This document shows, in pieces, positions 49,117 to 52,652 of a stretch of 56,883 nucleotides of DNA. Both the position numbers and the translations under genes were made by a program. The notes below the pieces were generated by a model. It searched no databases. It worked only from the letters and a program-made list of their open reading frames with translations, and was not told the origin of the DNA. Positions within the stretch are counted from its first letter, which is position 1. Every line of letters starts with the position of its first letter. Source of the stretch: an uncultured Ruminococcus sp. (GTDB lineage: Bacteria; Bacillota; Clostridia; Oscillospirales; CAG-272); NCBI GenBank assembly GCA_902762505.1, contig CACWOQ010000021.1, positions 1-56,883 on the forward strand, written 5' to 3'.

Positions 49117-49192
49117 TGCGGCATCGCCAAGCGGTAAGGCAACGGACTCTGACTCCGTCATTACCTAGGTTCGAATCCTAGTGCCGCAGCCA
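49117..49192 (+). tRNA. tRNA-Gln (anticodon CTG), CCA encoded
   Basis: Cloverleaf: acceptor TGCGGCA / TGCCGCA, D-arm GCC...GGC, anticodon stem ACGGA/TCCGT around CTCTGAC (anticodon CTG), T-arm CTAGG-TTCGAAT-CCTAG, discriminator G and encoded CCA at 49190-49192. A terminator hairpin follows at once. Confidence 0.95.
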
Positions 49193-49253
49193 AAAATCCT
49201 GCGCGACAGCGCAGGATTTTTCCTTATTCACTATTCACTATTCACTATTCACT
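49190..49253 (+). repeat. left arm of a 64-bp inverted repeat (tRNA CCA, terminator hairpin, TTCACTA array)
   Basis: Starts at the CCA of tRNA-Gln, runs through the hairpin AAAATCCTGCGC-GACA-GCGCAGGATTTT (a good intrinsic terminator) and into four TTCACTA units (49227-49254). It matches the reverse complement of 52517-52580 at 60 of 64 positions without a gap. Confidence 0.9.
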
Positions 49254-49312
49254 AAACCTTTCCCCTTCGCCGCAGGATTTTTGCAAGGTAAGAAGTAAGA
49301 GTGAATAGTGAA
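49227..49312. mobile_element. MITE-like heptamer repeat element, left copy
   Basis: TTCACTA x4 at one end and GTGAATAGTGAA (49301-49312) at the other give 12-bp terminal inverted repeats around a 50-nt core with GGATTTTT and GGTAAGAAGTAA. The right copy at 52457-52545 has the same order: array, GGGATTTT, GTAAGAGGTAACGA, CAGTGAA. Non-coding. Calling it mobile is inference from the repeat structure. Confidence 0.6.
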
Positions 49313-49342
49313 GAAGGAGAAGTAACAAAGGAGAAAAGGAAA

Positions 49343-49414
49343 ATGACGGAAAGTCCGTTAATGATCAAGTCAAAAGAACTCGCGCTTGAAGTGATAAAGG
49401 TTTGCGTTGAATAA
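49343..49414 (+). pseudogene. truncated four-helix-bundle (S23/IVP-like) protein gene
   Basis: A well-placed ribosome site, AAAGGAGAAAAGG, precedes an ATG whose product starts MTESPLMIKSKELALEVIK and stops after 23 residues. Four-helix-bundle proteins related to 23S rRNA intervening-sequence proteins typically begin this way and run to about 115-125 residues (family knowledge). So this is the 5' remnant of such a gene; the rest is gone. Confidence 0.65.
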
Positions 49415-49484: not shown

Positions 49485-49895
49485 ATGAAACGCGACCGCC
49501 GAGCGGAAGAAACCGAAAACAATGGTTCGAATTATCCCGATTGGTATTGGGTAAGAGGGCTCCATGATGCACAGATCACGTCTGTTGAAGAACTTGAATT
49601 GCCATATAATTATAAACTGCGGAACCCTATTAGAAATATGTTAATAATCCGATTGGATTCAAAACAGGCTTTGTTTGATTACTTGGTCAAAGAAATCAAA
49701 TTGTACAATTATAAAATAATTACCTCCGAAATATCATCTTCGGATCTTCAAAAATCATGGTGGCTATCAGACCGGTTGACTAACGAAAACGATAAATACC
49801 GTCTTAACATTTCACTTAAACGCGTTGGGAAGCAAAGCATAGAAGATCTTGAATTTGTTGTTCAGTTTTCAACTGCCGAGGTAACAAGATCATAA
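49485..49895 (+). CDS. unknown small cytoplasmic protein, likely acquired
   Basis: 136 residues; AAAGGAAA ahead of the ATG. Contains DWYWVRGLHDAQITSVEELE, then two beta strands (NMLIIRLDSKQALFDYLV, YNYKIITSEISS) and a closing LEFVVQFSTAE. No signal peptide or membrane helix. I do not recognise the family; the size and YWVRGLHDA start recall immunity-type proteins, but that is only an impression. Its base composition is clearly richer in A/T than the flanking genes, and it lies in the tRNA-bounded island, which suggests transfer. Confidence 0.7.
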   Translation: MKRDRRAEETENNGSNYPDWYWVRGLHDAQITSVEELELPYNYKLRNPIRNMLIIRLDSKQALFDYLVKEIKLYNYKIITSEISSSDLQKSWWLSDRLTNENDKYRLNISLKRVGKQSIEDLEFVVQFSTAEVTRS

Positions 49896-49998: not shown

Positions 49999-50026
49999 AA
50001 AAATCCACGCTTCGACGTGGATTTTT
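49999..50026. terminator. bidirectional intrinsic terminator
   Basis: AAAAATCCACG / CGTGGATTTTT, an 11-bp stem with a CTTCGA loop, about 100 nt after the unknown gene. Confidence 0.85.
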
Positions 50027-50049
50027 CAATTCTATTCCCATTCGACGGG

Positions 50050-50106
50050 TTATATTGCTTCGCAGTTATATTCGGCTGACGCCGGGTGATATTGCGCTTC
50101 GCGCAG
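50050..50106. repeat. REP-like ATATT-hairpin repeats, three units
   Basis: Three successive units of TTATATT or TGATATT, each followed by a short GC palindrome: GCTTCGC, CGGCTGACGCCG, GCGCTTCGCGC. This array resembles degenerate intergenic repeats found in many gut clostridia. Confidence 0.6.
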
Positions 50107-50288
50107 TTAAAAGGTGAACAGAATATCACTGAAAAAGCGTCGGAAAAGAAATACCGCATCGGTTCCGGCCTTATACCGCGGAAATAATGACACGCGGGAG
50201 AGGTTTTACCGGTTCGTTCCGTTCCTACGTCAAAGCTCGTATACACCGCACGTCAAAACGGCGTGCGCTTTTTATTTACATATAACGC

Positions 50289-52424: not shown

Positions 52425-52458
52425 AGCCCTTTTGTCTTTTTGCAAAAGGACTTTTTTT
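52425..52458 (+). terminator. intrinsic terminator
   Basis: CCTTTTG / CAAAAGG stem, extended by AG/CT beyond one bulge, followed by T7. It ends the DUF3737-lyase operon. Confidence 0.75.
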
Positions 52459-52545
52459 CACTGTTCGTTACCTCTTACATTCCGAAAATCCCGTGCGGGA
52501 GAAAGCGAAAGTGAAAAGTGAATAGTGAATAGTGAATAGTGAATA
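52457..52545. mobile_element. MITE-like heptamer repeat element, right copy (inverted)
   Basis: TTCACTG at one end, core TTACCTCTTACATTCCGAAA and CCCGTGCGGGAG, then GTGAAAA and four GTGAATA units (52511-52545). It is the reverse-oriented counterpart of 49227-49312, nearly equal in length (89 against 86). Non-coding. Confidence 0.6.
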
Positions 52546-52580
52546 AGAAAAAATCCTGCGCTTGCGCACAGGATTTTTGG
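52517..52580 (-). repeat. right arm of the 64-bp inverted repeat
   Basis: Reverse complement begins at the CCA of tRNA-Glu (52578-52580), then the terminator hairpin AAAATCCTGTGC...GCGCAGGATTTT, then the TTCACTA array. Four mismatches against 49190-49253; two lie in the hairpin loop region, so pairing is kept. Confidence 0.9.
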
Positions 52581-52652
52581 TGACCCGTAGCAGATTCGAA
52601 CTGCTGTTACAGCCGTGAAAGGGCCGTGTCTTAACCTCTTGACCAACGGGCC
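52578..52652 (-). tRNA. tRNA-Glu (anticodon TTC), CCA encoded
   Basis: Minus strand GGCCCGT...ACGGGTC acceptor with A discriminator and CCA; anticodon loop CTTTCAC (anticodon TTC); T-arm CAG(C)AG-TTCGAAT-CTGCT. The second gene of a two-tRNA transcript, 2 nt after tRNA-Met. Confidence 0.95.

Follow-up and report, generated by a model that had tools for sequence, protein, structure and literature searches.

A 3′-truncated copy of a small, very probably mobile element with an S23/IVP gene and facing inverted heptamer arrays in an uncultured Ruminococcus sp.

The tRNA-Gln locus and the other arrays of the window

The window, by which we mean the whole 56,883-nucleotide stretch of DNA that was analysed, holds a tRNA-Gln gene on its forward strand (49117..49192; ARAGORN, with an Rfam tRNA match at 49117-49189), and an element with facing heptamer arrays follows immediately on the same strand. 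The left end of this element type is an intrinsic terminator hairpin, AAAAATCCTGCGCGACAGCGCAGGATTTTT, located at 49192..49221 (+) from aligned copies and RNA folding. It is followed by an array of four TTCACTA units (49227..49254, +), a 44-bp spacer (49255..49298, +) containing GCAGGATTTTT, which repeats the 3′ arm of the terminator, and an inverted heptamer array, GAGTGAATAGTGAA, of two TAGTGAA units (49299..49312, +). A ribosome-binding site, AAAGGAG, can be read from the sequence at 49327..49333 (+), and the 5′ remnant of an S23/IVP gene, comprising 23 codons and a stop (MTESPLMIKSKELALEVIKVCVE), occupies 49343..49414 (+).

A preliminary description of this DNA had delimited an 86-bp element, made up of a TTCACTA array with an inverted end. 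The repeats lie as placed, at 49227-49312, but the left boundary did not stand: homology between copies behind different tRNAs begins right after the CCA and includes the hairpin at 49192-49221, so the element starts further left, after the tRNA CCA. In the aligned copies, the same hairpin recurs after tRNA-Gln, tRNA-Ala and a third tRNA-like 3′ end. With up to two mismatches allowed, TTCACTATTCACTA occurs nine times in the window, as against 0.19 occurrences expected from shuffles. The RNA fold of 49191-49325, which contains the terminator hairpin and a long array stem, has a z-score of −7.7. A spacer that repeats the terminator 3′ arm is found at the loci L012 and L284 as well as in the window (49255-49298); in L284, the repeat pairs with the terminator 5′ arm better than the terminator's own 3′ arm does.

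The short reading frame had been taken for the beginning of a four-helix-bundle gene of the S23/IVP type, and this identification proved correct: it is a remnant of an S23/IVP gene (PF05635), with its ATG at 49343 after a good ribosome site. Its homologue is the intact S23 protein encoded on contig C12 of the same genome (L012), with which it shares 21/23 residues (E 9e-13). The intact gene has a matching terminator, array, spacer, inverted array, ribosome site and opening codons, and the DNA homology of the remnant to intact copies stops near 49405 (match to 49400-49405). The L012 protein scores 77.9 bits against PF05635 (cut-off 33.8), a profile for which the window frame is too short, and it matches PDB entry 2rld (E 1e-22), which has the four-helix-bundle fold. 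A Pfam search of the intact protein returned no domain other than PF05635, and no recognised nuclease or transposase domain. Its relative XCC0516 (2gsc) assembles as a homopentamer, each subunit being a four-helix bundle (PMC4990558). The element in the window is a 3′-truncated copy of a small mobile element consisting of an S23/IVP gene and facing inverted heptamer arrays.

A second, inverted TTCACTA copy had been described at 52457-52545, and it is present there, behind a tRNA-Glu gene and an intrinsic terminator. This element (52457..52549, − strand) consists of the array only, with no S23 sequence left; its DNA match to the intact element ends at position 109 of the latter. Its terminator hairpin, read from the sequence, lies at 52550..52578 (−), and the tRNA-Glu gene lies upstream at 52578..52652 (−; ARAGORN and Rfam). 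Another intrinsic terminator, also read from the sequence (49999..50026, +), precedes a third array at about 50027..50142 (+). This array is of the hairpin type termed form B below, with TTATATT/GTGATATT motifs between hairpins and an inverted GAATATCAC rightmost. The Gut-1 RNA family (RF01706) matches it weakly at 50027-50097 (32.8 bits, E 0.001; gathering score 50), and no S23 sequence was seen by eye after the array (49999-50142). The 136-amino acid ORF at 49485-49895, sited between two arrays, matched no Pfam family, and it may be cargo or an old insertion. Rfam matches in the window to Leu_leader and Phe_leader fell below the gathering score and overlap terminator hairpins or arrays; they were taken as chance.

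Heptamer arrays at S23 genes

The preliminary description had raised the possibility that S23-type genes and such repeats travel together in clostridial genomes, which was borne out far beyond Clostridia. Of the two outcomes that it named as refuting, a lack of enrichment near the arrays and a 23-residue frame with no homologue, neither was obtained. S23 homology was found within 300 bp of TTCACTA arrays at 2/25 clostridial and 3/116 other loci, as compared with one S23 match elsewhere in about 0.86 Mb. Solo arrays far outnumber those with a gene: S23 homology lies close by at only 5 of the 141 TTCACTA loci. Two further tests, on TTCACTA-bearing genomes and on GGGAATC, were fixed before looking. 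S23 genes occur in 46 of 50 genomes picked solely for three consecutive TTCACTA units, which, taken alone, is modest evidence, since certain phyla are generally rich in S23 (75/99 Bacteroidota; compare 86/146 relatives and 9/60 Gammaproteobacteria) and the phylum make-up of the sets differs. Among the relatives, nine of the ten genomes with three TTCACTA units have S23, and the reversed pattern was found in 0/146. The heptamer GGGAATC, published from Xanthomonas (PMC4692102), was sought in 369 Gammaproteobacteria and found in one genome (G700), where the single S23 gene stands behind CGGGAATCGGCAATGGGGAATCGGGAATCG. Genome G005, which is 72% complete, has frequent TTCACTA arrays (18 pattern matches, several at contig ends), and no S23 gene was found in it.

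The arrays take two forms, both of which are found upstream of the S23 genes of the relatives. In form A, seen in most other phyla and some Clostridia, plain heptamer arrays flank the S23 gene on both sides. A scan of periods 3-15 upstream of S23 genes showed only 7 and its double, 14, to be raised, and the arrays peak directly before and directly after the gene and are absent within it. In 33 of the 47 genes for which both arrays were found, reverse-complementing the upstream heptamer gives the downstream one with no more than one mismatch; shuffling the partners gave a mean of 2.1 and a maximum of 8 in 2000 trials. The heptamer varies from element to element, whereas the two arrays of one element match. 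Since heptamer arrays are frequent in intergenic gaps (period-7 arrays in 32/285 other gaps of array-bearing genomes), it is this left/right match, and not the presence of arrays alone, that carries the argument.

The same bracketing was recovered with a mirror-image flank score that does not require a period of 7 and for which a pass lies above the 95th percentile of exchanged flanks. Mirror-image flanks were found for 62/84 S23 genes in other phyla, a set drawn from TTCACTA-bearing genomes. Most of the sequences analysed are MAG contigs. The unselected sets are smaller: only 17/30 S23 genes pass in Bacteroidota, and 8/9 pass in Gammaproteobacteria that were sampled without regard to arrays. 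On cyanobacterial plasmids, 3/3 pass. At a like threshold, 22 of 524 other genes in array-bearing loci pass, one of which (L118) is itself S23. This test on 524 genes replaced a control on the other noncoding gaps of the same loci, which were too few (Clostridia, p 0.04; other groups not significant).

Only close S23 relatives share heptamers, and heptamer change is rapid when set against that of the protein. The idea that each S23 protein has its one fixed heptamer was rejected on these grounds, and recognition of a single fixed heptamer is unlikely. A stop-codon cassette, in which a heptamer stop would end all three frames, was likewise discarded, as a stop in the sense direction is present in 32 of the 56 upstream heptamers and 32.0 are expected from shuffled letters. 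An S23 element with AGGTGAC arrays lies within a type I-D CRISPR operon, with cas6 on one side and cas4 on the other, on plasmid pANA02 of Anabaena sp. 90 (L409), and, as read from the flanks, others lie between genes resembling clpP and clpX (L297) and between genes resembling accB and accC (L431).

Form B, seen in many Clostridia, consists of a terminator, a motif of 7-8 nt alternating with small hairpins, and the motif inverted between more hairpins; 3′ of the inverted part there is often promoter-like sequence and then the S23 gene. In 72 non-redundant loci, a 7-mer occurs at least five times in 57-60% of 300-bp windows placed at the start of the gene, as compared with 0-6% of windows more than 100 bp away, where numbers were adequate. 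A strict terminator lies within 90 bp before 21/48 arrays, against 9/210 control stretches. Elements standing behind different terminators and tRNAs are 79-92% alike, from just after the terminator to near the S23 stop codon. Clostridial S23 genes belong for the most part to form B, and in the bracket test only 20/72 of them pass. Gut-1 scores above its gathering threshold on the form-B arrays of L010, L163, L232 and L032 (50-71 bits), and it matches both strands of one form-B array. In L009, L010, L011, L032 and L043, the 5′ arm of the first hairpin has a second complementary copy at the centre of the array, making two alternative pairings possible. This first-hairpin-arm repeat and the like repeat of a terminator arm in the TTCACTA spacer suggest copying by template switching.

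The S23 gene and its heptamer arrays very probably form a coupled mobile unit. Solo arrays are common, heptamers change fast relative to the S23 protein, and the spacer repeats one terminator arm in a manner resembling a copying scar. These observations could be explained if slippage and template switching made and spread the arrays without a dedicated protein, S23 being a passenger, perhaps kept for a stem that protects or regulates the mRNA. Such an explanation nevertheless leaves unaccounted for both the contrast in bracketing between S23 genes (62/84) and other genes (22/524) and the fact that the two arrays match, and we regard it as unlikely.

Movement, insertion sites and broken copies

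Insertion polymorphism of the coupled unit was seen when empty and filled sites were compared in Mesorhizobium and in the genus of the window. In Mesorhizobium, an S23 gene between (GTAGGCA)n and (TGCCTAC)n arrays lies between the same two genes in 13 of the genomes listed, while ten others have only 29-35 bp there. No target-site duplication is obvious at the filled and empty Mesorhizobium sites, where the neighbouring bases have diverged. One genome has an apparent array of 8-nt units (GGCAGTAG) and a shortened insert at this site (L402). The right-hand (tRNA-Glu) site of the window is empty in genome G004, which keeps both flanks, and filled in G000, G006 and G009. Behind this pair of tRNA genes, arrays of other types stand in G010 and G002 and none in several genomes, the further flank being different there. 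At the tRNA-Gln locus of G009, another array occupies the position of the TTCACTA element. Across the tRNA-Gln and tRNA-Glu loci of G000-G011 (L220-L233), the terminators after the same tRNA differ completely between species, with an array or none.

Within the genus, broken copies of the TTCACTA element retain its left part and are cut short on the right at about positions 101, 109, 127, 145, 175, 194, 208 and 275 of 484; full or nearly full copies are also present. Dispersed non-coding copies share their sequence with a gene-bearing copy, both for TTCACTA (G000 and the genus) and for GTAGGCA (Mesorhizobium). The arrays and the S23 gene are one inherited, moving unit in many phyla, and copies with an incomplete gene, or with none, are common.

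The unit sits in the sense orientation, either 3′ of a gene, behind a tRNA terminator or within 23S rRNA. Where the neighbouring genes are co-directional, with directions taken from open frames and not from annotation, 67 form-A elements lie sense and 6 antisense (p 4e-14). Two S23 genes lie inside 23S rRNA (L412, from Azospirillum, and L427). In their complementary ends, 7 is the best period in three of the four arms, with a clear score for the downstream arm of L427 (16) and weak scores for the others (5-8).

Sense-only insertion at terminator and rRNA sites would fit an RNA step, as expected of a retroelement of the DGR-like or group II-like kind, served in trans by a reverse transcriptase, with S23 acting as Avd does, but on the element's RNA copy. 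Avd (4DWL), a helper protein in a copying process, and S23 (2GSC) are reported to be homologous (PMC10053308). The only RVT_1 gene of G000 is nevertheless on contig C29, with the S23 genes on C12, C25, C31, C39 and C47. A resident reverse transcriptase shows no association with S23: 8 of 11 S23-bearing Gammaproteobacteria are without RVT_1, compared with 32 of 51 that lack S23 (Fisher p 0.73). The broken copies also keep the 5′ and lose the 3′ side, the opposite of what target-primed reverse transcription of a sense RNA would leave, and this origin appears improbable.

Possible mechanism and comparison with known systems

For the mobile S23/array unit, the explanation that we favour on balance is one in which the ends are folded and S23 binds them and helps. 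Either as RNA or as single-stranded DNA, the facing arrays would fold to give a long stem marking the ends of the element. An S23 ring, such as the pentamer of the solved relative 2gsc, would bind the folded end by its 7-nt spacing and shape and not by one fixed sequence, and would assist host enzymes in copying it or in joining it to new sites. Copying or correction of one arm from the other would keep the left and right heptamers alike, and the copies in the window would then be non-autonomous or dead. The binding and helping role of S23 is, taken by itself, the tentative part of this proposal. That the arrays instead bind a host translation regulator (S1, Csp or Csr, as proposed for TAACTGA), S23 being one regulated gene, is very improbable: TAACTGA repeats do stand directly before start codons in Beggiatoaceae (PMC4679880) and the arrays are close to the S23 start codon, but arrays are present just as much beyond the other end of the gene, where they are inverted and match in sequence (33/47), whole units are missing from related genomes, and promoter-like sequence separates array and gene in many clostridial loci.

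The mobile S23/array unit would connect 23S rRNA intervening sequences (IVSs), intergenic heptamer repeats, the S23 family, which has no known function, and Gut-1 RNA, all of which were previously separate. Arrays matched left and right but otherwise freely varying point to an unusual way of keeping the ends of an element alike. In its broadest form, which we put forward with some reserve, S23 could be the coding and acting part of a pan-bacterial mobile class with element-specific heptamer ends, its ring setting the 7-nt unit, and orphan heptamers, IVSs and Gut-1 could be products of this class. The mobile unit itself predicts that heptamer arrays should occur at S23 genes of the same genome, with S23 as a named candidate protein.

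Intergenic heptamers are known from TAACTGA in Beggiatoaceae, GGGAATC in Xanthomonas and cyanobacterial heptanucleotides (PMC4679880; PMC4692102), and they resemble the arrays described here in their period of 7, intergenic position and occurrence in distant phyla. They differ in that the published work found treats them without a partner gene. No connection between S23 and heptamers was found in the literature searched, most subscription literature lying outside the search. Gut-1 has been proposed as a noncoding RNA known only from human gut metagenomes (PMC2864571). Form-B arrays of four loci score above its gathering cut-off, but here it is half of a larger inverted unit, both strands match and S23 adjoins.

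In the IVSs, an S23 gene is bordered by complementary, stem-forming ends, and they have been described as selfish and of unclear origin (PMC4990558). Like those of Leptospira and Coxiella, the elements described here have an S23 ORF flanked by complementary ends that can pair into a stem, the gene being truncated in the window. Unlike the IVSs, the window copies stand behind tRNA genes, nearly all loci lie outside rRNA, and there is no rRNA fragmentation.

The preliminary description had likened the pair to REP sequences and their RAYT transposases. The coupling and mobility implied by this comparison were upheld. A RAYT-like action of S23 on the repeats is at most a possibility: PF05635 is the only Pfam domain found in the protein, and the heptamers are variable. 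As in REP/RAYT (REPIN) systems, many dispersed short copies with inverted parts have sequence in common with the few copies in the same genomes that carry the gene. The S23 partner is, however, a four-helix bundle and not a Y1/HUH protein, and the unit is a 7-nt tandem array whose sequence varies by element. The solo copies also resemble MITEs, in that inverted arrays are common to solo and S23-bearing copies, much as terminal inverted repeats are shared with an autonomous parent.
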